Below, piece after piece: positions 1 to 63,518 of a stretch of DNA of 64,000 nucleotides (the stretch's first letter is position 1; the number at the start of each line of letters is the position of its first letter). Location of the stretch: the NCBI GenBank assembly GCA_017458065.1, contig JAFTGD010000010.1:1-64000 (forward strand), given 5' to 3'. The notes beneath the pieces are model-generated. The model was not told where the DNA came from, ran no database searches, and was given only the letters and a program-made list of their open reading frames with translations. The position numbers and the translations under genes were made by a program. This DNA comes from Oscillospiraceae bacterium. GTDB lineage: Bacteria > Bacillota > Clostridia > Oscillospirales > Oscillospiraceae.

Positions 1-168
1 ACCAAGGAAGAAACCAAGGAAGAAACCAAGGAAGAAACCAAGGAAGAAACCAAGGAAGAAACCAAGGAAGAAACCGAGGAAGAAACCAAGGAAGAAACCA
101 AGGAAGAAACCAAGGAAGAAACCAAGGAAGAAACCAAGGAAGAAACCAAGGAAGAAACCAAGGAAGAA
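1..168 (+). repeat. 12-bp tandem repeat, 14 copies
   Basis: ACCAAGGAAGAA is repeated head to tail 14 times. One copy has GAG in place of AAG. It encodes the TKEE tract and probably extends left beyond the window. Confidence 0.95.
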
Positions 169-531
169 ACCGTTGCTGCCAACCCCACCGAACAGGCTGC
201 CACTGATGAATCTGCCATGAAGGCCGCTGAGCAGGCTGCCGCCGAAGAAGCCGCCAGAAAGGCTGCTGAACAGGCTGCCGCCGAAGAGGCCGCCAGAAAG
301 GCTGCTGAACAGGCTGCCGCCGAAGAAGCCGCCAGAAAGGCTGCTGAACAGGCTGCCGCCGAAGAAGCCGCCAGAAAAGCTGCTGAGGAAGAAGCCGCAA
401 GAAAAGCTGCCGCTGAGAAGGCCGCCGCTGAGAAGGCCGCTGAACAGGCCAGAACACACTGCCCCATTGAAGGCTGTGACCAGTTCCTGGATGAAAACCA
501 CAATTGCAGCGTCCACGGTCATATTGATTAA
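1..531 (+). CDS. C-terminal part of a low-complexity repeat protein (5' end outside window)
   Basis: The reading frame is open from base 1 and stops at 529-531, so the start lies upstream. The first 56 codons are 14 copies of Thr-Lys-Glu-Glu (one copy reads Thr-Glu-Glu-Glu). A short linker follows, then four near-identical 13-residue units of the type AAEQAAAEEAARK, an Ala/Glu/Lys tail that should be helical, and a small Cys/His-rich end (CPIEGC, then CSVHGH) that could bind zinc. The extreme charge and repetition suggest a filamentous, spacer or surface-associated protein, but no function can be assigned. Tandem DNA repeats underlie the protein repeats, so copy number probably varies between strains. 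A hairpin terminator follows directly. Confidence 0.7.
   Translation, partial: TKEETKEETKEETKEETKEETKEETEEETKEETKEETKEETKEETKEETKEETKEETVAANPTEQAATDESAMKAAEQAAAEEAARKAAEQAAAEEAARKAAEQAAAEEAARKAAEQAAAEEAARKAAEEEAARKAAAEKAAAEKAAEQARTHCPIEGCDQFLDENHNCSVHGHID
223..378 (+). repeat. 39-bp tandem repeat, 4 copies
   Basis: Four consecutive 39-nt units (223-261, 262-300, 301-339, 340-378) encode the 13-residue Ala/Glu-rich motif. Differences between copies are synonymous or near-synonymous, which points to recent tandem duplication. Confidence 0.9.
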
Positions 532-542
532 CACAAGCGTAT

Positions 543-580
543 AAAAGAACTGCTCCGAGAATACTCGGGGCAGTTCTTTT
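543..580. terminator. Bidirectional intrinsic terminator
   Basis: AAAAGAACTG (543-552) pairs with CAGTTCTTTT (571-580), with further G/C pairs inside. T-rich sequence on both sides lets it serve the repeat-protein gene and the convergent gene ending at 591. Confidence 0.85.
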
Positions 581-590
581 ATATATTCCA

Positions 591-1673
591 TTATTCTGAT
601 TTGTGTTTCCGTTCCCAACGCTTGCGCTGACGAACGCGGATGGCTTCTTCTGTTTGATCTTTTAGCTTTGGCAGGATCTCGTCTTCCATCCGGCCTTTCC
701 AGATCTTTCCGTACTGTACAGCCAGCACGGCAAACAAAATGACCAGATAGAGCAGGGCCAACGTCCCGATCAGGCAGCAGAGGCTGGCCCAATCCTCCGT
801 TCGCCTTGCAGCGTTCTCCCAGTAGGGCAGGACCGCGCCAGTCGTCTGTGCGCCGCGGGAGCCAAAGCTGAGTACCTGATCGATCATCTTGCCGTAATCG
901 TAGCGCGTCGTGTTGCAAAGGATCTCACCCTTGCCAATCGGGAACTTCTCTTTCGCTACATTCAGCGCAAAGTTTTTCACCGGATCCGCCATAACAAATT
1001 CATAGCAGTTGATCTTTGCATTTTCGTCCAGCTGCAGAAGCCCGTCATAGCTTATATAAAGATCCAGGCTGTCACTGTTGGCCTTTTTGCTGGCAAAGTC
1101 CGTCTCCTGCTTCACAACACCGGCAACAACAAACGGAACACCATTGAGCTTCATGCTCATCCCTGCAAGATCCGTACCGCCAAAGAGCATCCACGCAACC
1201 TCTTCGCTGAGCAGAATGCGATCCTGCATCAGGTCCGACTGACGAATATAGTCCCCGCTCAAGAGCTGAAGCGGATGAAAGTCGAAGAAGTCGCCGCCCA
1301 CCGCGATGACCGAAGCCTCGCCTCTCCCGTGTTCTCCGGAAGTGTAGAGCTTGGTCGAGGTGCTCCAGGCATCCAGCATCAGCGTCTGGTCGCCGCTGAT
1401 GTCCAGGGATGCCTCCTTCAGCTTCTTCATTGCTTCGCTGCGGAAACCCGCCACTTCAAGCAGACCGATCTGCTCATCAGATGGAAGGAAACATGAGATC
1501 TGGCTGAACGGCAGCTCTCCATCGCCCTGCCAGCGTTTTGCTTCCTGCTGGGAGTCCAGCAACCCGGCAAGCCATCTCCAGGCGCCGAAGCAGAGGACGG
1601 CCAGCACGAGGATACCCCCGCACACCGAAAACAGGATTAGCCGCTGCCGTTTCGGTTTTTTCTTCTTTTGCAT
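591..1673 (-). CDS. MacB-periplasmic-core-like membrane protein
   Basis: This 360-residue protein has a basic N-terminus, a membrane segment at about residues 13-34, a long extracytoplasmic region and a second membrane segment near residues 300-322 with a basic tail. The middle (ILLSEEVAWMLFGG, then GMSMKLNGVPFVVAGVV) resembles the periplasmic core of MacB/FtsX-type ABC permeases. It lacks the three additional FtsX membrane helices, so it is not a complete permease. It begins one base after the stop of the membrane-fusion protein gene with no obvious ribosome site of its own, which suggests translational coupling. It may form an efflux or envelope assembly with that protein; the ATPase is not in the window. 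Confidence 0.6.
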   Translation of the reverse strand: MQKKKKPKRQRLILFSVCGGILVLAVLCFGAWRWLAGLLDSQQEAKRWQGDGELPFSQISCFLPSDEQIGLLEVAGFRSEAMKKLKEASLDISGDQTLMLDAWSTSTKLYTSGEHGRGEASVIAVGGDFFDFHPLQLLSGDYIRQSDLMQDRILLSEEVAWMLFGGTDLAGMSMKLNGVPFVVAGVVKQETDFASKKANSDSLDLYISYDGLLQLDENAKINCYEFVMADPVKNFALNVAKEKFPIGKGEILCNTTRYDYGKMIDQVLSFGSRGAQTTGAVLPYWENAARRTEDWASLCCLIGTLALLYLVILFAVLAVQYGKIWKGRMEDEILPKLKDQTEEAIRVRQRKRWERKHKSE

Positions 1674-1674
1674 G

Positions 1675-4233
1675 TCAGGAATTGGCCAAACGGACCAAGT
1701 CGCCGTTCTTGATCGGGGCGCTGCTGGTCGTGATGACGTAATCGCCGAAACTGAGATCGGCGCTCAGCGCGGAGTTGGAGTCATCGCTGGCCAGAACCTC
1801 CACCGGAACGCGTCTTGCAATATACCGGTTCCCTAGCGGCGAACTCTTCGACTCAACCTTCAGGACGAAGGTGCCGTTCGAGTCTGTACGGACCGCGCTG
1901 CTGGGGATGATAATGTCGTAGTTTGCACTCTTCTGTCCTACTGAGAGCGTCAGCTCCGAACCGGCCGTCACATTGCCGCTGAGGTCAAAGGTCAACAGCT
2001 TATTGGTCTGCGGGTTCTTTTGGTCCACCTTGATGGAGGTCAGCGTTGCGACAATCTCGGTCCCCCAGTAGAAGTTGGATACCGTCGCAGTGTCGCCCGG
2101 GCGCAGGCGGTTGGCCTGATCATTGGTCACCGAGAAGGACAGGCTATAGCCCATGTCAGGTGCTTCGATCGTAGCGATAATGTCGTCTTTCTGCTTGGTG
2201 TCCCCAGGAGCCGCATCAATAGTCTGGATCGTACCGGAGACTCGGGCCAGGATCTGGGCTTCCTCCCCGCCGGTCAGATCGGCCAGTTTCTGTTTGGCTT
2301 TTTCAATCTGCTGCCAGGTATCCGCCAAGTCGATATTGTATCCGGCAATAGTGTTTTGGTTGCTGGATATCTTATCGTTAAGACTCTGCTTTGCGGAAAG
2401 ATATGCCTCTTCAGCATACTCACGATTCGACTTAGCAGTTTTATATGCTTCACTCTGTTGAGTATTACTGTCAAGTGTCAGAACTTCTACTGCTGTCTTC
2501 CATTTTTCAACTTCCCTAACCGCCGCCTCATATGCTTCCCTCGCTTCGGTAAGGGCGGAGTCATACCAAATAGCATCTATAGATGATTGAAGATTCTGAT
2601 AATCATCCAAAGCTGAATTCAGCATCACAAGTTGTGACTTTCTATAGTCTAATTCATCATAAGAAGTACTCGGCGATGGCTCTGGCTTGTTTTCATTCCC
2701 TCCACTGCTTTCACCATCATCCGAAGTAGCACTTCCTATAATTATTGTATTATCATGTATATCATAATAGTTTCCGCCAAAATTATCTTCTTCTCCTTTT
2801 CCTTCTCCAGTTTTCGATAAATCTGGGGAGTTGAACATTAATCCATCCGTATTATCTTGTTCGTTTTTTTCTTTATATTCAGGCTCAAACTCAGTTTGCT
2901 CCTCTTCAGGCTCATCTTCACCCTGAATTATCTCTGCCTTATACACCGCCTGATAATCTGCATCTTCTGTCACAGCTGTAATAGATGGAGACCATCTCTC
3001 AAATGTGTATATGTTTAATCCATCAGATTCTTTGCTTGGTTCATCATGAATAGGCATTTCACCATACTGATAGCTTGTAGAATCAATTTCAATGCCATCT
3101 TCATCCAGCCAAGTAATCGTATATTTTTTTAAACTTTCAGAGAAAACCGCTTGGTATACGGCATCTCCAGTAACATTATTTATGGTTGGATCCCATCTTT
3201 CAAATGAATATTCCTTCCCTTCAGCAGGATATGATTTACTTGGCTCTTCATGCTCTGGAGTTTCTCCATAATATAATGTTTCTTGATCTATGATGCTTCC
3301 ATCATCATTTTTCCATGTAATTGTGAACTTCTGAGGCTCAGTGTTTTGTTCTGTATCTTCTCCTGTTACCGGACTTGTTAATTCATTGATTCTGTGCTGG
3401 ACAAATGTGATCTGTCGATTAATTACATCTTCCCCGCTTAAAAACCCATTCCCATCTTTATAATCATATTTATATAGCTGAGTTGCAATTAGGTTTTTAC
3501 CCTCATATTTCTTTTCTGTCTCAACATATTCTCCATAATGGAAGCCCTCAATATGGTATGGCATACTGTTGCTATAAAGCTCTTCTAAAATACCTTTTTG
3601 TCTCCGTTGTAAATCTTCTAAAGTCTCTTCTGTGTTGGTAGCTTTTGCATTTGACATAGCAACATTATAAGCTTGCCCCGCTGCTGTCTTTGCTTTTTCT
3701 GCAGCTTCTAATGCATCTTTTGCATTTGCAAGTTGCACAGAATTTAGAGCTGCCAGCTGGGCTGCCCTCAAGGCGGCTTCCTCCGCAATCACAGCTTCCC
3801 GATAGGCGTCTTCCAAGTGGCTAAGCCTGTTATAATCCGCTCCATAACTGAATTCCGGCATGGTCGCTGCGGTTCTGTTATAGCTGGTTTGGAGCTGACG
3901 CAGCTTGTCCTCCGCCGCCTCGATGTCTTCGCTGCTGCCTTCGCCGAGGGTGAAGAGCACGTCGCCCGCTTCCACCTGTTCGCCGACCTTGACCAGAACG
4001 CTGCGGATCACACGGGTCTTTTCCATCTTGACCTGAGTGTTGCTGTTGGCGATGACGGTACCGGTACCTCGCACGCGCGCGACAATACTCCCGTCCGTGA
4101 CCCCCTGGGTCGCGACTTCGGGCAGGCTCCGGTTCATGATGGTATTGGAGAAGAAGGTGAGCACCAGAAGCACCACAAGGAAGATGATCGCGGCGTTCTT
4201 AACCCATTCTCTGTTTCTTGGTTTCTCTTGCAT
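1675..4233 (-). CDS. HlyD/RND-type membrane fusion protein with inserted InlB B-repeats
   Basis: This 852-residue periplasmic-adaptor-type protein has an N-terminal anchor (about 13-29) and split biotinyl-lipoyl halves (about 50-100 and 655-690). Two coiled-coil arms (about 103-220 and 535-655) and a C-terminal beta-barrel follow. The tip of the hairpin is replaced by a long insert with two tandem InlB/Listeria-Bacteroides-type repeats (about 302-364 and 370-432; FTITW...FERW...Y.AVF pattern) and an acidic, Ser/Gly-rich linker. The insert and flanking coiled-coil DNA (about 2330-3740) is visibly AT-richer than the two ends, as if acquired separately. The ribosome site AAAGGAG precedes the ATG at 4233. 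It likely couples an inner-membrane transporter to the cell surface; the cargo is unknown. Confidence 0.75.
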   Translation of the reverse strand: MQEKPRNREWVKNAAIIFLVVLLVLTFFSNTIMNRSLPEVATQGVTDGSIVARVRGTGTVIANSNTQVKMEKTRVIRSVLVKVGEQVEAGDVLFTLGEGSSEDIEAAEDKLRQLQTSYNRTAATMPEFSYGADYNRLSHLEDAYREAVIAEEAALRAAQLAALNSVQLANAKDALEAAEKAKTAAGQAYNVAMSNAKATNTEETLEDLQRRQKGILEELYSNSMPYHIEGFHYGEYVETEKKYEGKNLIATQLYKYDYKDGNGFLSGEDVINRQITFVQHRINELTSPVTGEDTEQNTEPQKFTITWKNDDGSIIDQETLYYGETPEHEEPSKSYPAEGKEYSFERWDPTINNVTGDAVYQAVFSESLKKYTITWLDEDGIEIDSTSYQYGEMPIHDEPSKESDGLNIYTFERWSPSITAVTEDADYQAVYKAEIIQGEDEPEEEQTEFEPEYKEKNEQDNTDGLMFNSPDLSKTGEGKGEEDNFGGNYYDIHDNTIIIGSATSDDGESSGGNENKPEPSPSTSYDELDYRKSQLVMLNSALDDYQNLQSSIDAIWYDSALTEAREAYEAAVREVEKWKTAVEVLTLDSNTQQSEAYKTAKSNREYAEEAYLSAKQSLNDKISSNQNTIAGYNIDLADTWQQIEKAKQKLADLTGGEEAQILARVSGTIQTIDAAPGDTKQKDDIIATIEAPDMGYSLSFSVTNDQANRLRPGDTATVSNFYWGTEIVATLTSIKVDQKNPQTNKLLTFDLSGNVTAGSELTLSVGQKSANYDIIIPSSAVRTDSNGTFVLKVESKSSPLGNRYIARRVPVEVLASDDSNSALSADLSFGDYVITTSSAPIKNGDLVRLANS

Positions 4234-51266: not shown

Positions 51267-53915
51267 TCAGCTCCTCTCCAACTGCGTGGTATCTGGGGTT
51301 TTCCTCTCTTCGAAGGTGTTCCCGTAATAGGCGTTCAGATACATCTGACGGATTTCGCTCATCAGCGGATACCGGGGATTTGCTCCGGTGCACTGATCGT
51401 CAAAGGCCTGTTCCGTCATCTCGTCCAGCGTCGCAAGGAATGCCTCCTCATCCGGCACATAATCACGGATGGTGGGCTTGATGCCGATCTGCCGCTTGAG
51501 CTCGTCGATTTTTTCGATCAGCGCAGCGACCAGTTCCTCATCGCTCGCCCCTCTGCAGCCCAGCCAGGCGGCGATCTCCGCATACCTGGCCATGGTGTGC
51601 GGGTGGTCATACTGTGGGAAGCTCCCCATCTTGGTCGGCACCTCGGCCGAGTTGAAGCGGATTACCTCATCCATCATCAGGGCGTTGGCCAGACCGTGAG
51701 CGATGTGATGGAAGGCGCCCAGCTTGTGCGCCATGGAGTGCATCACGCCGAGGAAGGCGTTGGCGAAGGCCATACCGGCCATCGTGGCGGCATTGGCGAC
51801 CTTCTCTCTGGCCTCGAGATCCGTCTGACCGTTCTCATAGGCACGGGGCAGATAGGTGAACAGGGTCTTCAACGCTTTCAGCGCCAGCGCGTCGGTATAA
51901 TCGGTGGCCATCACCGAGGCATAGGCTTCCAGCGCGTGGGACACCGCGTCGATGCCGGAGGCCGCCGTGAGTCCCTTGGGTGCGCTCATGTGAAGGTCGG
52001 TGTCTACGATCGCCATGTTCGGCATCAGCTCATAGTCCGCCAGCGGATACTTGATGCCGCTGGTCTCGTCCGTGATGACGGCGAAAGGCGTGGCCTCGCT
52101 GCCGGTTCCGGCGGAGGTAGGAATCGCGACAAAGTATGCCTTCTCTCCCATCTTCGGGAACTTGTAGATTCTCTTCCGGATATCCGAGAAGCGCATCGCC
52201 ATGTCGGCGAAGTCCGCCTCCGGATGCTCATACAGCACCCACATGATCTTGGCCGCGTCCATAGGGGACCCGCCGCCCAGGGCGAGGATGACGTCGGGCT
52301 TGAAGCTCAGCATCTGGGCCGCGCCGCGTCTGGCGCATTCCAGCGTGGGGTCGTTCGGCACGTCGAAGAAGCAGGTGTACTGGATGCCCATTTTCTCCAG
52401 CTGCTCGAAGATCGGCGCGGCCGCGCCGGACTTGTACAGATGCGGACCGGTAACCACGAAGGCACGGGTCTTTCCCATCTCGCCAAGTTCAGCCAGAGCG
52501 GTCGGCAGGCAGCCCCGTTTGGTATAGATCTTTTCAGGTGCGCGGAACCACAGCATGTTCTCCCTTCTTTCCACGACGGTTTTGATGTTCAGCAGGTGCT
52601 TGACCCCGACGTTCTCGGAGACGGAGTTTCCGCCCCAGGAGCCGCAGCCCAGCGTCAGGGACGGCGTCAGTGCAAAGTTGTACAGATCGCCCAGACCGCC
52701 GTGAGACGAGGGGGTGTTCACCACGATGCGGCAGGTCTTCATCCGGTCCTGGAACTCCGCCAGCTTTTCCTGTCCGGTGACCGTATCCAGATAGATGGAG
52801 GAGGTATGGCCGCGGCCGCCGTCCTCGATCAGGCGCTCAGCCTTGCTGAAGGCGTCCTGCAGGTCCGCCGCGCGGTACATCGCCAGCACCGGCGAGAGTT
52901 TTTCGTGCGCAAATTCCTCGCTCAGATCCACCGAATCGACCTCGCCGATCAGGATCTTGCTCCCTTCCGGAACGGTCACGCCGGCCAGCGCCGCGATGGT
53001 TGCCGCCGGCTGTCCGACGATCTTCGCGTTCAGAGAACCGTTGATGAGGATCGTCTTGCGGACCTTGTCCAGCTCGTCTTCCTTTAGGAAGTAGCAGCCC
53101 CTTGCCGCAAACTCCCGCCGCACCGCGTCATAGACGTTTGTATGCACGATGACCGACTGCTCCGAGGCGCAGATCATGCCGTTGTCGAAGGTCTTGGAGT
53201 GGATGATGGAGTTAACGGCCAGCAGAATATCCGCTGTCTCGTCGATAATCGCCGGGGTGTTCCCTGCGCCGACGCCCAGCGCCGGGGTGCCGGAGGAGTA
53301 AGCCGCGTTGACCATATTCGGTCCGCCGGTAGCGAGGATGATGTCCGACTTCTTCATCAGCAGTCCCGTCATATCGCGGGAGGGCATATCGATCCAGCCG
53401 ATGATGTCTTCCGGGGCGCCGGCCGCTACCGCCGCTTCCAGGACGACCTTCGCCGCCTCCACCGTGCAGGCCTTTGCCCGGTGATGCGGGCTGATGATAA
53501 TGCCGTTGCGGGTCTTCAGCGCCAGAAGCGTCTTGAAGACGGCCGTAGAGGTTGGGTTCGTCGTCGGGATGATGGCGCAGACCAGTCCCAGCGGCTCCGC
53601 GATCTTCCGCATGCCGTATTCTTTGTTTTCTTCAATCACGCCGCAGGTTCTGGTGTTCCGATAGGCATTGTAGATATATTCGGAAGCAAAGTGATTCTTG
53701 ATCACCTTGTCCTCCACGATCCCCATCCCGGTCTCGGCCACGGCAGCCTTGGCCAGGGGAATACGTGCCTTGTTGGCCGCAGTCGCTGCGGCCAGGAAAA
53801 TTCTGTCCACCTGCTCCTGTGAGAAGTGCGCATAGATCGCCTGGGCCTTTTTGACCCGCTGGATCTCCTGTTCCAGCTTCTCAACAGAATCGATGAATTC
53901 ATACTCTTTGCTCAT
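51267..53915 (-). CDS. adhE: Bifunctional acetaldehyde-CoA/alcohol dehydrogenase
   Basis: This 882-residue fermentative enzyme reduces acetyl-CoA to ethanol. The N-terminal ALDH half (1-440) has the catalytic Cys in FDNGMICASEQSV. The C-terminal iron ADH half (about 455-870) has GGGSPMDAAKIM and the iron-site His residues in MHSMAHKLGAFHHIAHG. Spirosome-forming AdhE has this size. The promoter upstream carries a Rex-type operator, so NADH excess should derepress it. GGAGG lies in the leader just before the ATG. Confidence 0.96.
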   Translation of the reverse strand: MSKEYEFIDSVEKLEQEIQRVKKAQAIYAHFSQEQVDRIFLAAATAANKARIPLAKAAVAETGMGIVEDKVIKNHFASEYIYNAYRNTRTCGVIEENKEYGMRKIAEPLGLVCAIIPTTNPTSTAVFKTLLALKTRNGIIISPHHRAKACTVEAAKVVLEAAVAAGAPEDIIGWIDMPSRDMTGLLMKKSDIILATGGPNMVNAAYSSGTPALGVGAGNTPAIIDETADILLAVNSIIHSKTFDNGMICASEQSVIVHTNVYDAVRREFAARGCYFLKEDELDKVRKTILINGSLNAKIVGQPAATIAALAGVTVPEGSKILIGEVDSVDLSEEFAHEKLSPVLAMYRAADLQDAFSKAERLIEDGGRGHTSSIYLDTVTGQEKLAEFQDRMKTCRIVVNTPSSHGGLGDLYNFALTPSLTLGCGSWGGNSVSENVGVKHLLNIKTVVERRENMLWFRAPEKIYTKRGCLPTALAELGEMGKTRAFVVTGPHLYKSGAAAPIFEQLEKMGIQYTCFFDVPNDPTLECARRGAAQMLSFKPDVILALGGGSPMDAAKIMWVLYEHPEADFADMAMRFSDIRKRIYKFPKMGEKAYFVAIPTSAGTGSEATPFAVITDETSGIKYPLADYELMPNMAIVDTDLHMSAPKGLTAASGIDAVSHALEAYASVMATDYTDALALKALKTLFTYLPRAYENGQTDLEAREKVANAATMAGMAFANAFLGVMHSMAHKLGAFHHIAHGLANALMMDEVIRFNSAEVPTKMGSFPQYDHPHTMARYAEIAAWLGCRGASDEELVAALIEKIDELKRQIGIKPTIRDYVPDEEAFLATLDEMTEQAFDDQCTGANPRYPLMSEIRQMYLNAYYGNTFEERKTPDTTQLERS

Positions 53916-54301: not shown

Positions 54302-54592
54302 ATGATCAAAATCATCGCCAAACGCCTTGTCCGCGAAGAGTGTCTGGAGGACTATATCCGCCTCACGGAAGAGCTGGTCGCCGCCTCGCAGGCGGAGCCG
54401 GGCTGTGTCACCTATACGCTGAACCGCTGCACTGAGAATCCCCGGCTTTTCTCCTTCATTGAGATCTGGAAGGATCAGGCGGCCATCGACGCGCACAACG
54501 CCAGCGAGCACTTTACCCGCATTGTGCCTCAGCTTGGCAAACTGCTGGAAATCAATTATCCTGTTGAACATTACACGGAGGTATGGGGATGA
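54302..54592 (+). CDS. Antibiotic-biosynthesis-monooxygenase (ABM) family protein
   Basis: This 96-residue dimeric ferredoxin-like protein of the YgiN/ABM group has IKIIAKRLVREECLEDYI, EPGCVTYTLNRC and FIEIWKDQAAIDAHNASEHF, in which the conserved His and Trp are present. Members act as quinol monooxygenases or as small-molecule binders. Its stop overlaps the start of the lipoprotein gene (ATGA at 54589-54592). Confidence 0.87.
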   Translation: MIKIIAKRLVREECLEDYIRLTEELVAASQAEPGCVTYTLNRCTENPRLFSFIEIWKDQAAIDAHNASEHFTRIVPQLGKLLEINYPVEHYTEVWG

Positions 54593-55518
54593 AAACAGCT
54601 AAAAAAATTCTTTCTGTCCTGCTGGTCCTTGTCATCGTGCTGAGCCTCAGCGGCTGCAGCCCGATCACGATCACAAAGGCCGCCAAGAAAATGTCCGATT
54701 TGAAGAGTCTGCGGGCGGACCTGGATCTCGATCTCGATCTCAGCATGAATATGATGGACGAGGCGTCCGACCTCGACGTCAAGGTAACCGGTCCCTTCGA
54801 CATCGACCTTGCCGGCGGGAAGGGCAAAGGCGAGCTCAGCGTCAACATGATGGGCGAAGTGCTCCCGATCCTCTTCTACTATGAGGATACGGAGGACAGC
54901 TATCACTTCTACGTCTCGCCGGACGGCGGCGCCACCTGGACCAAGAACGATGCCCCCAAGAGCGAGGACAGCCAGACCAAGAGCAGCGGCTCGACGCTCA
55001 AGTCCATTGTGGAGCTGACCAAGTTTGCAGCCTCCTTTGAGGAGGCCGGCACCGAGACCGTAAAGGGTACCGAGGCCGTCCTCTACACCGGCCGGCTGCA
55101 GTGGTCGGAGCTGATCGGGGATGCGGACCTCTCCGGGGCGCTTGCATCCGCCGGGAGCGCGGCCGGCACGGATCTGGACCTCAGCGGGCTGGACCTCAGC
55201 AACCTCGGCAGCATCCCCGTCACCATCGGCTTTGACGAGGCCAACAGCAGGGTCGTGAAGGCCTCGATGGATCTCACAGAGACCGTCAACACCCTTGTCC
55301 CCATGGTGATGAAAGCCGTCATGAAGTCCGTCCTGGAAGAGAGCGGCATGAGTCCGGAAGAGATGGGCGAATTTGACCTCAGCATGCTTGGCATTGAGCT
55401 GGATGTTCACACGCTGACTCTCGCGGCGGAGCTCTATGACTTTGACGCCGTCGGCGAGATCGTGATCCCGCAGGAAGCCCTTAACGCCGAGGCAATGCCT
55501 GTCGGCGCGGCGGCCTGA
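54589..55518 (+). CDS. Secreted lipoprotein of unknown function
   Basis: This protein of about 309 residues has a lipoprotein signal (KKILSVLLVLVIVLSLSGC, Cys near residue 22). The mature part has runs of Asp/Leu (DLDLDLDLS, DLDLSGLDLSNL), an amphipathic beta-rich fold like LolA/DUF6612-type lipoproteins, and no enzyme motif. The ATG at 54589 has GGAGG at 7 bases; the ATG at 54583 is too close to it. Likely an envelope lipid- or ligand-binding protein. Co-transcribed with the ABM gene. Confidence 0.75.
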   Translation: MKTAKKILSVLLVLVIVLSLSGCSPITITKAAKKMSDLKSLRADLDLDLDLSMNMMDEASDLDVKVTGPFDIDLAGGKGKGELSVNMMGEVLPILFYYEDTEDSYHFYVSPDGGATWTKNDAPKSEDSQTKSSGSTLKSIVELTKFAASFEEAGTETVKGTEAVLYTGRLQWSELIGDADLSGALASAGSAAGTDLDLSGLDLSNLGSIPVTIGFDEANSRVVKASMDLTETVNTLVPMVMKAVMKSVLEESGMSPEEMGEFDLSMLGIELDVHTLTLAAELYDFDAVGEIVIPQEALNAEAMPVGAAA

Positions 55519-56344: not shown

Positions 56345-56399
56345 AAAAAGAATCGACAGAAGTCATCCCGGAAACGGGCGCTTCTGTCGGTTCTTTTTT
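56343..56399. terminator. Bidirectional terminator
   Basis: CGACAGAAG (56354-56362) pairs with CTTCTGTCG (56381-56389), flanked by A7 and T6-7 runs. Confidence 0.9.
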
Positions 56400-56417
56400 A
56401 TATCCTGTCAGGGGTTC

Positions 56418-59400
56418 TCACGGCTCCGGGGTCGGCGGGACAGTCTGGACGTATCCGCTGCTCCGCCCTGGCCAGAGCGGCCCATCGGCCGAGATGCAGG
56501 TGACAAAGAGGTTTTCTTCCGTCACCTGGGTGCCATAACATGAGAAGGCGATGCGGTGGTCGCAGAAGGTCTCGCCAAAGACACAGTCGCCGAATTCCGC
56601 GAGGTCCGCCTGGGCAACCGTTGTCCGGAAAGCCTCACTGAAGGTGGTGTTCATAAACTCCTCATCCATCGAGAGGATCAGGAACTGTTCCCTGCTTGGA
56701 ATGGTAAAACCCCGTCCTTTGGCAAAGACCGGCAAGGGATAGCTCAATTTGTCAGCCAGGGCTTCCCAGTCGCCGTCGGCAATGGCCTGCTGAACCGCGG
56801 CGGCGAAAACCGCCTGCGGGAAGCCTGCCTGGTAGTGGTGTGTGGGTTCATCCGCGAAGGGGTTGACCAAGTCTTCCACCGAGCCGAGGAATTCCCTCTC
56901 CTCTGTCTCCGCTTCATACACGAAGGGTACCAGGGTTCCGTCCGCGCCCACGTCATACTCGCTCTCCCAGCCCGTGACCGGCTCGCCGTTCCAGGTCTTG
57001 TCGCCGCACTGGGTAAAGCGGAAGGCCGGCGAGGGCACATCGTGCACGTCGCATTCGACAAAGCGGATGCCGTCCGTCTGGAAGAACTGGCCTGCGCCCT
57101 GGCTGCATTCATAGATCTCGGTCCGCAGCACCGAGAGCCCGCTGCCGTACGAGCTCTGGATCCCCAGAATGCCGCAGCCGTAGAGCCGCATGCTGTCCAG
57201 CGTGATATTGTTGCAGGACTGCAGGTTCAGCACGCCGCCGGAGCAGGCGCCGGGCTCTTTGGTGTGGCCGGCCGTGAAGCCAATCAGCGTCACGTTTTCA
57301 CAGTCGCGCAGGTTGAGCACATTTGCGTAGCGCGGGATGGCGGCCAGGGTGACCGCTTCGGGCGCCTCCGCTTTCCCGGCAACGGTGAGCCCGGACACAT
57401 CATGGATCACCAGCTCCGGTCCGTCGTTGCTCTGATGCCAGAAGTAATATTCACCGCCGACGCTGCCGTAATCCGCCGCTGTCGAGAGGTCAAAGACTTC
57501 ACCGTCCAGCACGATGGTGCGGTCCGGCCCGATGGCCGAGAGGAATTCATCCACGGTCTTTACCGGTACCGTCGCGCCGCTCTCCACCGCCATGGCCGGC
57601 GCCGCCGCGGTCGGCTCGGCGAAGGCCGAGAGGTCCAGAAGCTCCGGCGTCATGCTCGCGAGGGCGTTTCCGTCCAGCAGGTTCCCGTCTTTGTCGTTGG
57701 CAAAAATCCCCGTTCCCAGGTACCAGCTGCCCTCATGCATGCTGTTGTCCGTAAAGCTGCAGCCGTCCACGGTCGCGCCGTACTGCTGGAAGCCAAACAC
57801 ATAGGCCGCGACAGCATTGCCGCTCACGTCGTTGGACAGGAAGCTTACGCCTTTGGTGTAATCGCAGTTTAAGATGTACTGGACGTTGTTGTCGTGGATC
57901 CGGCTGCGGTACACCGTGAAGCCCTCGGAATACGAGGCGCTGAGCAAGCTCATGGCGCTGCCCTGACCGGCCTTCACGCCGTGGTCCCGGATATCACAGT
58001 CCTCCACCAGCACCTCGCGGCAGGAGCGGACCTCCACCGCGCTGTAGCTACATTCGTAGATGTCGCTGCCCCGCACCATGAGACCGATGCAGTCCCTCGC
58101 CTGGACCCCGACGGTGCCGCAGCCGTACAGGCCGCAGGCGTCCACCATGATATCCCGGCAGACGTCAAACAGCAGCACGCCCCCGGAGCAGAAGCCGGGT
58201 TCCTGCGTGTGCCCCGCTGTCAGGTCCGACACCGTCACGCCCTCACAGCCGGAGAACTTCATGACGTTTGCATACCGGGGCACCGCGGCGATGACGGTCT
58301 CCCCCATTCCCGCGCCGCGGATGGTCAGGTTCTCCAGATTCTGCAGCACCAGCTCCGCCTGAACGGATCTGTCTTCCTCAAAAACCCTGTTCCAGACATA
58401 ATAGGGGCTCTCCGTCGTCCCGCCGTAGCCTTCGGCCGTCGACAGGTCATAGGTCCCCGCCGCAAGCTCGATCACCCGGTTGGGGCCGATCGCGTCCAGA
58501 AACTCATCCACCGTCGAAACACGGATCACATCCCTATTCTCCGTCTCGTCGGTCATCACAACTTCCGCCCTGTCTCCGTACGCCGCCGCGCGGATCCCCG
58601 CGCCCGCCGGCCCGGCGGTGACTCCGCATGCCAGCAGGAGCACCAGCGTCAGCACAGCGGCCAGGATCCGGGTCCTGCTCTTCCGGTAATGCATGATCTG
58701 TTCCAGCCGCTCCTTCAGGTTTTTCTTCTCGGTGGAGAAGCTGGTCGCAACCACGCCGGCCGGGAGGGCGGAACTCGCTACCATGTTCAGAAGGGTATTG
58801 CCGTAGGACTGTTTCTCAGCCCGGGTCATGGAGCGCAGCAGCATCTCGTCACAACTCAGTTCGCAGGCGCGGTTGATCTCCCTCCGGGCAAGCCATGCAA
58901 TGGGATTGAACCAGTGGAGTGAGAGCACCGCAACCGACACCCACTTATACAGCGTGTCCCCGCGCCGATAGTGCGTCAGCTCGTGCCGCAGGATGTTCGT
59001 GAGAAGCTCCTCGTCGTAATCCCGGACCGGCAGGATGATGCGGGGATGCATCAGGCCGCACATAAGCGGCGTCTTGAGATAGCGGCACCCGTATAATTTG
59101 GGCTTTCTCCCCGGGATGTCCTCATACACGCCGCGTGCAGAGGGATCCGCCTCCTGCAGGTTCTGTCCAAGCTTCCGCGTAAAGCGCAGGTACGACGCCA
59201 CCGTGTATCCGAAGCAGACCACAGCCCCGGCGGCCCAGACCGTAAGCCAGAGCGCGGGCGACCTCCAGTGGAAGGTTCCGCTCTGCCGGCCGGCCGGTTC
59301 CGCCGCCCCGCTCTGCTCCGTCAGAGCGCTGTCCGCATCCTGTTCCGTGATGCCGCCCGCTTCCTGTACCGGTAAACCGCTTGGAAGCCGCGGGCTAAGG

Positions 59401-59654
59401 TCAGTGCCCGTCCCGCGGGTATCCTGCACCGCAGGCACGCTGTAGGCGGCTGGCGCCGGCGCGGAGGCCGGTTCCGTCCCGCCGAACAAAGCAGGGACAA
59501 AGCCGGGCAGCGGCAGCGCAAAGCGCAGCAGCACCAGCAGCCAGGCGTAATAATAGACCGTGCTCGGCATCTTCTTCAGAATCAGATACCGCAGGGCCAG
59601 AAGCAGCAGCGCAAGCGCGCTGCCGCTGAGGGTAAGAGTGAATACCGTCGTCAT
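56418..59654 (-). CDS. BlaR1/M56-type metalloprotease sensor fused to two parallel beta-helix modules
   Basis: This 1078-residue protein has several N-terminal membrane helices, a zinc site HELTH at 224-228 with the third ligand in NRACELSCDE (about 262-270), and another membrane helix at about 329-344. These are the BlaR1/MecR1 protease features. The extracytoplasmic region has no penicillin-binding domain. Instead residues 378-665 and 698-885 form two right-handed beta-helix modules, each opening with STVDEFLDAIGPNR or KTVDEFLSAIGPDR and sharing IPRYANV...AGHT.EPG.CSGGVL. A separate globular domain occupies about 930-1065. The start lies three bases after the BlaI-type gene stop. The protein should sense an envelope or glycan ligand and trigger cleavage of the repressor. 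Confidence 0.85.
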   Translation of the reverse strand: MTTVFTLTLSGSALALLLLALRYLILKKMPSTVYYYAWLLVLLRFALPLPGFVPALFGGTEPASAPAPAAYSVPAVQDTRGTGTDLSPRLPSGLPVQEAGGITEQDADSALTEQSGAAEPAGRQSGTFHWRSPALWLTVWAAGAVVCFGYTVASYLRFTRKLGQNLQEADPSARGVYEDIPGRKPKLYGCRYLKTPLMCGLMHPRIILPVRDYDEELLTNILRHELTHYRRGDTLYKWVSVAVLSLHWFNPIAWLARREINRACELSCDEMLLRSMTRAEKQSYGNTLLNMVASSALPAGVVATSFSTEKKNLKERLEQIMHYRKSRTRILAAVLTLVLLLACGVTAGPAGAGIRAAAYGDRAEVVMTDETENRDVIRVSTVDEFLDAIGPNRVIELAAGTYDLSTAEGYGGTTESPYYVWNRVFEEDRSVQAELVLQNLENLTIRGAGMGETVIAAVPRYANVMKFSGCEGVTVSDLTAGHTQEPGFCSGGVLLFDVCRDIMVDACGLYGCGTVGVQARDCIGLMVRGSDIYECSYSAVEVRSCREVLVEDCDIRDHGVKAGQGSAMSLLSASYSEGFTVYRSRIHDNNVQYILNCDYTKGVSFLSNDVSGNAVAAYVFGFQQYGATVDGCSFTDNSMHEGSWYLGTGIFANDKDGNLLDGNALASMTPELLDLSAFAEPTAAAPAMAVESGATVPVKTVDEFLSAIGPDRTIVLDGEVFDLSTAADYGSVGGEYYFWHQSNDGPELVIHDVSGLTVAGKAEAPEAVTLAAIPRYANVLNLRDCENVTLIGFTAGHTKEPGACSGGVLNLQSCNNITLDSMRLYGCGILGIQSSYGSGLSVLRTEIYECSQGAGQFFQTDGIRFVECDVHDVPSPAFRFTQCGDKTWNGEPVTGWESEYDVGADGTLVPFVYEAETEEREFLGSVEDLVNPFADEPTHHYQAGFPQAVFAAAVQQAIADGDWEALADKLSYPLPVFAKGRGFTIPSREQFLILSMDEEFMNTTFSEAFRTTVAQADLAEFGDCVFGETFCDHRIAFSCYGTQVTEENLFVTCISADGPLWPGRSSGYVQTVPPTPEP

Positions 59655-59657
59655 CCG

Positions 59658-60035
59658 TCATTCCTCCACCCGGAACATCTCGCGCAGCTCCTCGATGTCG
59701 TCCTTCGTCAGGCCGTCAGACCGGACCAGCGCTGCCACCAGATTCCGCGCGCTGCCGTTATACAGACGGCTGATCAGGTGTTCTGTCGCCCACGCGTGAT
59801 ACTGCTCCTCATCGACAAGGGGAGAATAGTAGTAAACCTTCCGTTTTTCCTGAAGCACAACGCCCTTGGACACCAGCCGCGCGATCAGCGTCTTGATCGT
59901 GGCAGGCTCCCAGCCGATGGACTCCTGCAGGCTCTCGCGGATCACCATGACCGGCAGCGCTTCCCCTGCCTGCCAGAGCAGCTTCATGATCTCTAATTCG
60001 GAATCGGAGATTTTTCCGCACAGTTCGTTGTTCAT
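59658..60035 (-). CDS. BlaI/MecI/CopY family repressor
   Basis: This 125-residue protein has a winged-helix N-terminal half (LCGKISDSELEIMKLLWQAG, GWEPATIKTLIARLVSKGVV, KVYYYSPLV) and a helical dimerisation/cleavage end. BlaI-type repressors bind TACAnnTGTA; such sites are present in its own promoter. It is the first gene of the unit with the M56 sensor, so the pair forms a proteolysis-controlled switch. Confidence 0.93.
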   Translation of the reverse strand: MNNELCGKISDSELEIMKLLWQAGEALPVMVIRESLQESIGWEPATIKTLIARLVSKGVVLQEKRKVYYYSPLVDEEQYHAWATEHLISRLYNGSARNLVAALVRSDGLTKDDIEELREMFRVEE

Positions 60036-60058: not shown

Positions 60059-60115
60059 TACAATTGTAGCTCGAGCACTGTCAATATAACACCTCAGTCT
60101 ACAGTTGTCAACTGT
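60059..60115 (-). promoter_or_regulatory. Promoter with two BlaI-type operators
   Basis: TTGACA (60106-60111) and TATATT (60083-60088) on the minus strand are 17 bp apart. TACAATTGTA (60059-60068) is a perfect palindrome just after the expected transcription start. A second palindrome, ACAGTTG-T-CAACTGT (60101-60115), covers the -35 element. Confidence 0.82.
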
Positions 60116-60251: not shown

Positions 60252-62045
60252 TCAGCCTTCCCAGCCGTAGAAGCGGTCGAAGATCTCATGCAGCGGCAGG
60301 TATTTGTCCGCTGTCATGCCCTGTACCGCGCCGAGTTCCATCACTTCGGCGCCGGTCTCGCTCGGGCTCCACTTTGGGAGCCCCTCTCCGTTGGGATCTC
60401 CGGTACGGATAAAGTTGACAAAATAGTCTGAGAACAGGTCCGCCAGTTCCCGGTCGCTCTCGTCATAGAGCCCGGAATCCGCCGGGATGTTGTTGTAGCA
60501 GTAGATCTCTTCCCCGCTGTGCCAGGTGCCGAGGCGGCCGTTCTCCTTGGTGAAGAAATATTCATACGCCGGGAAGCCGTTTGCAACCGCCTGCCTGCTC
60601 CAGCAGTAATGCCCATAGGTGAAGAAGACGCCGCTGTAGATATCCGTCCACATGGTCCTGGCCTCCGCATCCGTGGCCGCGGGGTAGAGCGCCAGGACCT
60701 CATCGGCGTAATCGCCGAAATAGGCCCTCACCTTCTGTTCATAATTCTTCATGTTTGCCTGGGCAAAGAGGATAAAGGGCGTCCCCTCCTCGGCGTTGAA
60801 GCCCTGCAGGCAGGCCTCTTCGTTGTGGATGCCTTTCCGGTACGAGTCATACGGCAGCTCTTCCAGCACGTATCCGTCCACGGTGATGTGGTGGTTGACA
60901 TCGGTGGCGGCCACCAGGGTCCCGGCATCCACCTTGCGGAGCTCGTCAATGCCGGCGGCGCCGAAGCGCTGCAGGGTCTCATCCCCCACGGCAAAGGCCT
61001 CATCCAGCAGGCGGAAGGAGTGGGTCGGCGCGGGCGCCGAGACTGTGGAGCTCTCCCCGATGGCACGGCGGAACAGCCCCTTTGCCAGCGGCGAGGTGCA
61101 TAGCGCGCTCACACAGGCGGAACCGGCGGACTCGCCCGCAATCGTCACGTTGTCCGGGTCACCGCCAAAGGCCTCGATGTTCTCCTGCACCCACTGCAGC
61201 GCCTTGATCTGATCGAGCAGGCCGTAATTGCCCGTGGTCCCGCTGGGGGATTCCGCCGCCAGCTCCTGCGTTGCGAGAAAGCCGAACACGCCGAGGCGGT
61301 AGCCCATGTTCACCACCAGCACGCCCTTGCGCGCGAGGCCCTCGCCGCTGTAATCGGCGTACCAGGGCTGCCCAGTCTGCAGAGCGCCGCCGTGGATGTA
61401 TACCAGCACGGGCAGCTTCTCCTGCTCACCGGCCGGCTTCCAGATATTCAGATACAGCGCGTCTTCGGAGTTGGCCTCCCGATAATTGTCGCTCAGGGAG
61501 ATTTTATAATCGTGGTATCCGACGATCTGCGCCAGCGAGTTGTAGATCACAGAGTTCTGGGGCTGCATCGACATCGGGGCGAAGCTGTCCGCTGCGAGCA
61601 CGCCCTCCCAGGGGGCCGGGTCCTGAGGCTCACGCCAGCGCAGCTCCCCCACGGGCGGCGCTGCATAGGGGATGCCGGCATAGACTTCCACCGCCTTGTC
61701 TGCGGTGTAAACGCCGGTGAGATCCCCGTCCTTCACGGTGACGACATCTGTGGTGCCGCCGTTTTTGCCCTCCACCGCCGGGTGCAGCTTGGTGGGGCCG
61801 ACGGTGCCGAACAGCACCCCTGCAAGCGCTGCCAGCAGCACCGCAAACAGGAGAAACCGAAGGATGCCCTTTTGCTTTAGAAGCAGCCTTTTCCTCAATA
61901 CGGCATACAGTACCAGCAGCACCAGCGCTGCGCACCAGCCGATCAGGGTGTTCTTGTTCAGCTCCAGCAGCGCCAGATACAGCAGGCTGAATATCGTGAA
62001 AAAGATCCGGAATCCGATCCCCTTTTTCTTCGTTTTCTGCTCCAT
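60252..62045 (-). CDS. Membrane-anchored type B carboxylesterase
   Basis: This protein of about 597 residues starts with a basic tail and three hydrophobic helices (about 10-30, 36-52 and 62-82), then an alpha/beta-hydrolase of the para-nitrobenzyl esterase/cholinesterase type. EDALYLNIWKP, the oxyanion-hole VYIHGGALQTGQ and the nucleophile elbow TIAGESAGS (Ser in GESAG) are present. A late HSGEEI-type His completes the triad region (GTWHSGEEIYCY). The catalytic domain should face outside. The start at 62045 follows GGAGGCGAG; the frame extends to 62120 but has no better ribosome site. Confidence 0.85.
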   Translation of the reverse strand: MEQKTKKKGIGFRIFFTIFSLLYLALLELNKNTLIGWCAALVLLVLYAVLRKRLLLKQKGILRFLLFAVLLAALAGVLFGTVGPTKLHPAVEGKNGGTTDVVTVKDGDLTGVYTADKAVEVYAGIPYAAPPVGELRWREPQDPAPWEGVLAADSFAPMSMQPQNSVIYNSLAQIVGYHDYKISLSDNYREANSEDALYLNIWKPAGEQEKLPVLVYIHGGALQTGQPWYADYSGEGLARKGVLVVNMGYRLGVFGFLATQELAAESPSGTTGNYGLLDQIKALQWVQENIEAFGGDPDNVTIAGESAGSACVSALCTSPLAKGLFRRAIGESSTVSAPAPTHSFRLLDEAFAVGDETLQRFGAAGIDELRKVDAGTLVAATDVNHHITVDGYVLEELPYDSYRKGIHNEEACLQGFNAEEGTPFILFAQANMKNYEQKVRAYFGDYADEVLALYPAATDAEARTMWTDIYSGVFFTYGHYCWSRQAVANGFPAYEYFFTKENGRLGTWHSGEEIYCYNNIPADSGLYDESDRELADLFSDYFVNFIRTGDPNGEGLPKWSPSETGAEVMELGAVQGMTADKYLPLHEIFDRFYGWEG

Positions 62046-62104
62046 TTGTCTCGCCTCCGTCTCACGGGTTCTGCACCGGATCATACCAAAGAGAGCAAGC
62101 CCTG

Positions 62105-62932
62105 TCAACCGTCCCGGCAATCACGCCTGAAGAACGGAGGATATTTTCGCATCTGTTCCAGCACAATGCGTTCAACATGGTCCAATATTTCTGCTGAGTA
62201 ATAATCCCTCAATTCTGCGAGAATACCAGCAAGATCTTTCCTGGTAAAATGCAGTTTCAGCTGCGGATGGTACAGCTGCTCAGCTGCTTCCGCCTGTTCA
62301 TCAAAGTTCCTGTCGAACGGCTTTGCCTGTACTCTTGAAATAGACTGATAGATATCCTGATCTATCGGATAGTCGTTCCAGTCTGACAGCAGAGAAAGCC
62401 CGTTATCGTAGACGGGACATAGCCGAAACTGCTGCGTTTTCTCATTCCTGATTACGGCAATATTATTTGTATGCCGATCCTCATTCAAAAAAAGGCTGTC
62501 CAGTTCCAGAATTATCGTCAGGTATGCGCCAAAGTTTTTCAGATCAGTTGTTTTTTCCACAAAATCCACCGTATAACTTATCTTGTTCGGCAACTCCATT
62601 CTTGCAATCTGTTGTGCCAAACCTCGTCCGCAATAGGCTCGGTGTAAACGTTCAATCGGTATCAGAATCTCGTCCTGTGTTTTGAAATTATCGCTACAGC
62701 ATCCCGGCACTCTTTTCCCGTCGAACTCAATCAGAACAGGCTCATACTCCACATATTCCGGTACATTCGACTTCCTCAGCAGTTTGGAGATCAGTACTTC
62801 TGCCAAGCCTTCGTAACCCATGTGATCTGCTTTATACCACTTTCCAGCCGAGAGCCATTTCGGCTGGTTTCCTTTTGACGAATGCCCTTCTGTCTCTTCT
62901 CTTCCGGTTTCGTTAAAGCTAACTCGCTGCAC
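62105..62932 (-). CDS. HipA-like kinase-fold protein
   Basis: This 275-residue protein (GTG start at 62932) has LNEDRHTNNIAVIRNEKT and CPVYDNGLSLLSD, matching the catalytic loop and metal-binding Asp-Asn of HipA/CtkA-type kinases. The ATP Lys lies in the early GKWYKADHMGYEGLAE-type segment. It lacks the HipA N-terminal subdomain 1. Its start overlaps the HTH partner gene by 14 bases, and AGGAGCAGGAAC precedes the GTG. Candidate toxin of a HipBA-like module; the partner is not HipB-like. Confidence 0.72.
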   Translation of the reverse strand: MQRVSFNETGREETEGHSSKGNQPKWLSAGKWYKADHMGYEGLAEVLISKLLRKSNVPEYVEYEPVLIEFDGKRVPGCCSDNFKTQDEILIPIERLHRAYCGRGLAQQIARMELPNKISYTVDFVEKTTDLKNFGAYLTIILELDSLFLNEDRHTNNIAVIRNEKTQQFRLCPVYDNGLSLLSDWNDYPIDQDIYQSISRVQAKPFDRNFDEQAEAAEQLYHPQLKLHFTRKDLAGILAELRDYYSAEILDHVERIVLEQMRKYPPFFRRDCRDG

Positions 62933-63518
62933 GTTCCTGCTCCTCTCTGTTCAGGTACCTGATTTTGAGCCAAAGATCATCCTCGGCCATGCGCCCCTGT
63001 GTCTTTTCAACAATCTGCAGCGGATCATAGTCGTTGAGTCCAAGCTGTTTCAGGATACTTTTACAGTTCCCTCTCATTCGAGGAAAACACCTGTCCTCCA
63101 AAAAGTACTCAAAATCTGCCCATGTCGGATTCTCGACTATGCCGAAAGCCCGGTGAAGAAGGTCCTTCGTTTTATTCTGAATATAGATTTTCCGTTTCAA
63201 GAAGTCCACGTCGATTACCGTACAGGGGTGCTGGCGGTACATATAGATCATCCTCATCGTGCAGCCCTCCGGTGGTTGCTCCGTAAGCCAACGGCTGACC
63301 ATCTGTCTGGAAGTGCCATAGTTTTCCGCGATTTTCTCCAGTGGCATTCCAGCGTCCCGCAACCTCTCCATCTCATGAATATCCGAATCGCTGAACCTTC
63401 TTTTTCTCCCCGCTTTCCGGGGATTGCGCTCATTCACTTTCCTGGCTATCTCTTGCAATTTCTCTACATCGTCCGTCCCAAAGAGCTCCAGGCAAAGCGC
63501 CCGATAATCTGTGCTCAT
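62919..63518 (-). CDS. Helix-turn-helix protein paired with HipA-like kinase
   Basis: This 199-residue protein has a Hin-like HTH at about residues 39-78 (GRKRRFSDSDIHEMERLRDAG and EKIAENYGTSRQMVSRWLTE) and a C-terminal domain of about 100 residues (MIYMYRQHPCTVIDVDFLKR, FEYFLEDRCFPRMR) not recognised. It heads the two-gene unit and has a perfect consensus promoter. Probable DNA-binding antitoxin or regulator of the kinase-fold protein. Confidence 0.75.
   Translation of the reverse strand: MSTDYRALCLELFGTDDVEKLQEIARKVNERNPRKAGRKRRFSDSDIHEMERLRDAGMPLEKIAENYGTSRQMVSRWLTEQPPEGCTMRMIYMYRQHPCTVIDVDFLKRKIYIQNKTKDLLHRAFGIVENPTWADFEYFLEDRCFPRMRGNCKSILKQLGLNDYDPLQIVEKTQGRMAEDDLWLKIRYLNREEQERAAS

Follow-up and report, generated by a model that had tools for sequence, protein, structure and literature searches.

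What might a protease of the BlaR1 type, known mainly as an antibiotic sensor, report on when its predicted outside part is a beta-helix and not a penicillin-binding domain? The question is raised by a two-gene locus in a window of 64,000 nucleotides (the whole stretch of DNA analysed, i.e. positions 1 to 64,000 of the forward strand of contig JAFTGD010000010.1, assembly GCA_017458065.1) from an Oscillospiraceae bacterium, where a gene for a BlaI-type repressor is followed by one for a zinc protease of the M56 family. From comparisons of sequence and genome context we argue, with a probability of roughly 0.6, that the two form a self-contained, autoregulated transmembrane proteolytic receptor cassette, with an extracellular polymer, for instance a glycan, as the most likely partner of its helix.

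The genes lie on the minus strand with three bases between them, blaI (59658-60035) first and then, as a single open reading frame (ORF), the gene for the 1078-residue M56 protein (56418-59654), in which an M56 domain with the full catalytic set is followed by a fourth transmembrane helix (TM4), two homologous beta-helix modules and a C-terminal domain. The features on which the argument draws are as follows.

59658..60035, minus strand: blaI, encoding a 125-residue repressor of the BlaI/MecI/CopY type (PF03965; aligned to MecI and BlaI in the PDB)
56418..59654, minus strand: gene for the M56 sensor protease with beta-helix modules, 1078 residues (Pfam; 12 relatives with the helix part)
58695..59648, minus strand: M56 domain, residues 3-320, with three predicted transmembrane helices and a presumably cytosolic zinc protease (PF05569; topology by analogy with BlaR1, PMC9834060)
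58971..58985, minus strand: HELTH zinc motif, residues 224-228 (H224, E225 and H228 invariant in 13/13)
58848..58862, minus strand: ELSCD, the ExxxD gluzincin motif, residues 265-269 (E265 and D269 invariant, aligning with E242 and D246 of BlaR1)
58737..58742, minus strand: S305-F306, the bond that aligns with S283-F284, where BlaR1 cuts itself (8exp alignment; F306 invariant)
58626..58670, minus strand: TM4, residues 329-343; its last residues, LLLAC with Cys343, resemble a lipobox (PS51257-like pattern)
57576..58544, minus strand: beta-helix module 1, residues 371-693, with R460, H482 and C489/C512/C535 conserved (PF13229, module homology, period)
56919..57575, minus strand: beta-helix module 2, residues 694-912, with R775, H797 and C804/C827/C850 conserved (homology to module 1, period)
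56421..56918, minus strand: C-terminal domain, residues 913-1078, with no family assigned (alignment and profile searches)
60083..60111, minus strand: sigma-70-type promoter TTGACA-17-TATATT with TG before the -10 box (11/12 consensus matches)
60100..60109, minus strand: operator 1, GACAACTGTA on the minus strand (TACAGTTGTC forward), over the -35 box (sequence pattern)
60059..60068, unstranded: operator 2, TACAATTGTA, downstream of the -10 box, 41 bp from operator 1 (sequence pattern)

Profile searches in Pfam (expectation values given as E) place Peptidase_M56 (PF05569) over residues 3-320 of the larger protein (E 3e-47, 161.7 bits against a cut-off of 31) and Beta_helix (PF13229) over two further stretches of it (E 1.1e-15, 58.1 bits against 25.9), while BlaI matches Penicillinase_R (PF03965; E 3.9e-30, 105 bits against 22.6); in the organism's own genome, which is 96% complete, this pair supplies the sole M56 match and the sole PF03965 match. 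Catalytic residues were mapped by alignment to the solved BlaR1 (8exp), and invariance was read from 13 proteins, i.e. the window protein and 12 relatives. The catalytic and structural residues named in PMC9834060 (zinc ligands, general base and the Asp, Tyr and Arg in support) map to H224, E225, H228, D233, E265, D269, Y284 and R316, and these eight, together with F306 at the autocleavage position, are all invariant in 13/13 proteins; the putative autocleavage bond S305-F306 has a bulky hydrophobic P1' residue, as in BlaR1 and MecR1. The M56-BlaI pair thus most likely works like BlaR1. An earlier note on this DNA had proposed the coordinates, an intact HELTH zinc site, a BlaR1-type sensor protease, and an intact BlaI-type partner with its operators, all of which were borne out.

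In the strict sense, nevertheless, the M56 protein is not a member of the BlaR1 family. With the NCBIfam model blaR1_generic it reaches 103 bits where the cut-off is 400 (the best-scoring stretch covers residues 137-339), a motif scan found neither SxxK nor K[TS]G beyond residue 352, where the earlier note had asked whether a penicillin-binding serine motif might be hidden, and Pfam gave no transpeptidase match anywhere in the protein at E up to 1; a penicillin-binding sensor with SxxK, as in BlaR1 and MecR1, is accordingly absent. Neither does a beta-lactamase or penicillin-binding-protein gene accompany the cassette as a target: in a comparison of neighbours (ORFs of at least 120 residues, BLAST at E 1e-15, flanking stretches of up to about 4 kb in the 12 relatives), all 13 loci had only blaI and the M56 gene in common, blaI being the sole shared neighbour of the M56 gene, and every other group occurred at three loci or fewer. 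BlaI likewise stays below the cut-off of the CopY equivalog (83.7 bits against 121.95). CopY copper repressors have a Cys-rich C-terminal metal motif; in BlaI (P0002) there is a single Cys and no motif of that type.

The second line of evidence concerns what the repressor would control. Both the Penicillinase_R profile match and the TACAnnTGTA-type operators mark the regulator as a BlaI/MecI-type repressor. Operator 1 (TACAGTTGTC, 60100-60109) lies over the -35 box and operator 2 (TACAATTGTA, 60059-60068) after the -10 box, 41 bp apart, and this paired operator occurs 42 times in 38 of 101 genomes of the genus, once in the own genome, against zero matches for the reversed pattern as a control. 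A script that checked 30 of the 42 matches found blaI in 30/30 and an M56 gene directly downstream in 29/30, the thirtieth lying at a contig edge; the remaining 12, compared by eye, all stand just upstream of an M56 gene, which brings M56 downstream to 41/42. The helix part is visible at 38 of these 42 loci, cut off by the contig end at two (G096, G010), replaced at one (G019) and unseen at one (G079:C49). The pattern is strict and misses some cassettes (L002 and L089, for example, differ in operator 1), and scripted reading of loci missed M56 in L105-L107 and did not find BlaI in L084 and L088. Since the paired operator was found only at cassettes, what induction mainly yields seems to be further receptor, and the cassette is apparently self-regulating. 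The wider regulon that the earlier note had hoped to define by a genome search for TACAnnTGTA sites did not emerge: the single operator TACANNTGTA is rarer in the own genome than its reversed pattern (18 against 53 occurrences), i.e. it carries no signal, and among the 15 of the 18 sites that were read 12 fall inside ORFs of at least 120 residues and only the blaI site has a partner. No TACAnnTGTA site was found upstream of 35 free-standing helix genes (see below) in the loci examined.

The outside part itself appears to be a doubled right-handed beta-helix, as Pfam, internal homology and periodicity agree. Modules 371-693 and 694-912 are homologous (Smith-Waterman score 369 against a best of 51 in 200 shuffles), hydrophobicity has a period of 23 residues (0.23 over both modules, with 0/2000 shuffles as high; module 2 alone likewise 0/2000, module 1 alone not significant at p 0.08), and 13/13 members match the family profile at E 0.1 or better, so that the two duplicated modules claimed by the earlier note, and the further C-terminal domain, hold. 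That last domain is absent in 4/13 proteins (L007, L008, L009, L011) and cut by the contig in L013; Pfam offered only weak identities for it (SnoaL_3 at E 0.18 and DUF1843 at E 0.28, each in 1/8), and Ig-like ends suspected by eye in L003-L005 brought up no Pfam Ig family. In an alignment of 51 fused and 56 free helix segments, near-copies included, the two groups show equal conservation of the columns R460, H482, C489, C512 and C535 and of their counterparts R775, H797, C804, C827 and C850 (e.g. H482 in 50/50 fused and 46/46 free, R460 in 49/50 and 43/46). Probably the outside part senses something at the cell surface.

Cassettes of this kind occur in many genomes of the genus. Among 76 relatives in named records 12 (L002-L013) have the helix part; seven of these 12 records are titled as gut samples of goat, sheep, roe deer or water buffalo, and five are 'RUG' isolates, which we take to be from rumen. 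The M56 protein is matched in 98 of 101 genomes of the genus, many of the matches listed being helix parts without M56, and the helix profile matches in 35/250 genomes of the family, 10/245 of the order and 39/391 of the class, these three samples overlapping. The M56-beta-helix fusions that the earlier note wished to see sought in related genomes therefore exist, in the 12 named relatives and beyond the genus: among the loci read, fusions outside it are L256 and L260, each of another genus, and L312, of another family of the class. The cassette of L312 (positions 23-3135, plus strand), one in the sample of 391 class genomes, is 65-69% identical to L007, L008, L009 and L011 and 50-54% to the other nine of the 13 aligned rows, which fits transfer of the whole cassette, so that horizontal transfer seems likely. 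A literature search (with few subscription papers and no preprints) turned up nothing on fusions of M56 to a beta-helix, nothing on a lipobox in connection with BlaR1 and, among the papers listed, nothing on varied M56 sensors.

Within these genomes the outside part behaves as an exchangeable unit. A tree was built from 99 M56 domains, 40 of them with a helix and 59 without (rows without helix came from 60 stretches in the upper part of the matches listed, 109 of 150 family genomes having matched, plus L142). In it 39 of the helix fusions group together in a single clade (support 100/99), and L260, in which the helix is joined to a distant M56 lineage after what by eye is a BlaI-like gene, lies far off. 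A single clade of helix fusions is rejected (approximately unbiased test, p 0.0055, on a quick tree in which the long branch of L260 calls for caution), so the fusion appears to have arisen at least twice. At the one locus where the helix is replaced (L331 in G019, 811-3519, minus strand), BlaI and the operator pair are as here, the M56 part scores 425 bits with the profile of the fusion clade, and RCC1 repeats (E 4.3e-41) stand outside; with BlaI, operators and M56 clade unchanged this points to a swappable sensor slot. Among 60 other M56 proteins of this bacterial family that were scanned, not one matches a penicillin-binding domain or Beta_helix (Pfam, E 0.001) or the helix profile; the outside parts that Pfam recognises in them are M23 (2), Big_14 (2), LRR, CBM9_2, WG, FG-GAP, DUF4825, DUF4829 and DUF5780 (1 each). 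Sensors other than the beta-lactam type are therefore the local norm, and of the earlier statement that the penicillin-binding domain is missing and replaced the absence stands, whereas the implied descent from a BlaR1 that had one does not fit 0/60.

Helix regions also occur without a protease. In the genus, free proteins (e.g. L134, L136, L237 and the paralogue at L124 6194-8083) have the two modules and the His/Cys columns of the receptor but no M56; read by eye, they begin with a signal peptide, in many cases one that has a lipobox. The paralogue lies in the own genome (G000:C57:44127-46055, i.e. L124 6194-8083, plus strand) as a two-module helix without M56 or BlaI, and upstream of it there is a faint KER..QIM-like stretch that is not significant (E 0.33). 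In L135 a stretch aligning with the M56 end lies just before the signal peptide (E 0.001), as if the protease had been lost. A tree of helix regions, 41 fused and 35 free (76 in all, once rows of fewer than 400 columns or above 97% identity had been dropped, L260 among them), implies at least eight changes between the fused and the free state, seven of them forced by starred branches (quick tree, no bootstrap). The signal-peptide proteins and these changes together make the helix region an exported, separable unit; since it is joined to Cu_amine_oxidN1 in L261 and L262 and to SLH in L267, the module is also a general surface building block. A free helix gene directly precedes the cassette in two genomes (L143, L234), and the shared neighbours of the free proteins form groups of up to eight loci without a functional hint. 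At L142 (1436-7043) an M56 gene of another lineage with BlaI is divergent from a free lipoprotein-like helix gene, with which it could share a control region.

The junction between protease and helix may be what permits such changes. Directly after TM4 a lipobox-like pattern (PS51257) is present in 31 of 39 different fusion sequences, close relatives included, against 1/39 within the M56 part; matches beyond the junction, mostly in the Cys-rich helix, occur in 19/39, so only the contrast with the M56 part is used here. With a less strict pattern, 28 of 64 other M56 ORFs also match, some of them in mid-helix, so the trait is not confined to helix fusions. Cys343 sits inside a polytopic protein, at the end of what resembles a signal-peptide helix, and a lipoprotein site may be present and used there. 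One tentative idea, which we would not rate as probable, is that the last transmembrane helix of M56 also serves as the signal peptide of a lipoprotein: signal peptidase II would cut at the conserved Cys and leave the helix either tethered or lipid-anchored, this dual role would permit repeated switching between receptor and lipoprotein, and an operator pair serving only its own operon would raise the sensor as its product, with an exchangeable outside part. A further lead is the conserved internal ATG M321 (58692-58694) before TM4, preceded by a GGAG-type sequence in 22 of 40 fusions, whereas 61 of the 704 remaining internal Met codons have one, an excess of which the encoded Leu-Glu explains much, the window gene having GGAA only; it is a possible start that would give a free lipoprotein.

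How might the cassette work? By analogy with BlaR1, BlaI would shut the blaI-M56 promoter through the two operators, over the -35 box and just after the -10 box, while the M56 protein would sit in the membrane with its zinc protease inside and its doubled beta-helix outside. Once the beta-helix is engaged, in all likelihood by a polymer outside the cell (a glycan, for example), the transmembrane helices would shift and the active site would be freed, and the freed protease would cleave BlaI, probably at A102-L103 (the position aligned with the staphylococcal BlaI/MecI cleavage site), so that the operon is induced; the beta-helix would then be the sensor and, at the same time, the surface product that is induced. 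A cut by signal peptidase II may, in most members, release the sensor from the protease and leave it lipid-anchored, which would parallel the cut that the signal peptidase SpsB makes in BlaR1 between the last transmembrane helix and the sensor (PMC9834060).

Several observations weigh against this scheme. No ligand-specific evidence was found for the switch responding to a glycan or other envelope polymer that the earlier note had proposed, and the glycan is a ligand that we infer. The His and Cys columns, being equally conserved in free proteins, mark the module and not signalling, and in sequence searches neither the helix profile (at E 0.01) nor the C-terminal profile (at E 1) matches any solved chain. 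The loop between the second and third transmembrane helices has no invariant residue between P54 and S132 in the 13 proteins, whereas loop 1 of BlaR1, its equivalent, plugs the sensor; coupling would therefore differ from that in BlaR1 or be looser. The P1' residue of BlaI is Leu in 13/13, and not the Phe described as almost invariant (both BlaR1/BlaI traits from PMC9834060). The lipobox fails in 8/39 fusions (seven without Cys; in L081 the Cys follows Leu) and by eye also in L260 and L331, which means that the family can do without lipidation. The operator pattern being strict, looser, single or differently spaced operators may exist elsewhere, and control of nothing but itself is the simplest reading, not a proof.

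The competitor that survives best, although we think it unlikely, holds that the helix is mainly an effector, i.e. a surface enzyme or adhesin, and that M56 and BlaI provide feedback on its own display or folding at the membrane with no external ligand at all. The restriction of the paired operator to the cassette would suit it, as would the occurrence of the modules in ordinary surface proteins, i.e. free with a signal peptide or attached to SLH or Cu_amine_oxidN1; but RCC1 repeats can take the place of the helix next to an unchanged set of BlaI, operators and M56, and the helix has joined a second M56 lineage, both of which look more like a sensor slot, and no enzyme family matches the helix part except GH28, weakly (E 0.087, 1/13). 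Distinctly less probable is a thiol or metal sensor, in which the stacked C489/C512/C535 and C804/C827/C850 with H482/H797 would bind metal or react with oxidants. The near-invariance of these columns at a 23-residue spacing in fused and free proteins, the below-cut-off kinship of BlaI to CopY, and weak matches to NosD, a periplasmic copper-binding beta-helix family, in 10/13 members (best E 2.1e-6) speak for it, whereas the Cys spacing equals the coil length, as expected of an inward-facing structural ladder, BlaI lacks the metal motif, and no other gene is conserved beside the cassette. A hidden sensor of beta-lactams or other cell-wall antibiotics, for which only the BlaR1-like kind of M56, BlaI and operators would plead, is strongly disfavoured by the missing SxxK, KTG and transpeptidase matches, the low BlaR1 score and blaI as sole conserved neighbour.

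The surroundings of the cassette in the window are given next; none of the first four neighbours is found beside the cassette in the 12 relatives, the inverted repeat is likely a two-way terminator shared by the operon and the convergent gene, and the last two genes are a candidate for a two-gene defence or toxin-antitoxin-like pair.

60252-62120, minus strand: carboxylesterase
51267-53915, minus strand: AdhE-type alcohol/aldehyde dehydrogenase
54302-54592, plus strand: ABM monooxygenase
54583-55518, plus strand: DUF6612 protein
56350..56401, unstranded: inverted repeat flanked by A and T runs (by eye; absent from a hairpin scan with a loop limit of 8)
62105-63518, minus strand: HipA-like protein (PF07804 at E 0.003, below cut-off; PADLOC PDC-M03A at E 2.3e-12); it overlaps a second gene, whose product has an HTH of the resolvase type (PF02796, E 1.9e-7)

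Taken as a self-regulating receptor, the cassette presents a BlaR1-type protease and repressor carrying a different outside part, apparently acquired more than once, in many genomes of one gut genus, in a further genus of the family and in one genome of the 391 sampled from the class. It offers a test case for BlaR1-type signalling with sensors that lack acylation chemistry and a conserved loop plug, and a case for receptors turning into free surface proteins. Among known systems, the 60 other M56 proteins sampled in the family likewise have large, variable outside parts and no match to a penicillin-binding domain, but none to the helix either. The BlaR1 homologue of M. tuberculosis combines M56 and BlaI without a penicillin-binding domain, as here, but without an equivalent sensor domain (PMC9834060). 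From BlaR1 and MecR1 the receptor differs in its doubled beta-helix outside instead of a penicillin-binding domain, its unconserved loop 1, the P1' Leu of its BlaI, its lipobox-like site in place of a type I site, and in that no target gene was found besides the cassette; with the staphylococcal BlaR1/BlaI and MecR1/MecI systems, as described in PMC9834060 and PMC7593790, it shares the M56 fold and catalytic set, the Ser-Phe autocleavage position, an outside C-terminal part after TM4, a repressor of the BlaI family and operators over the promoter.

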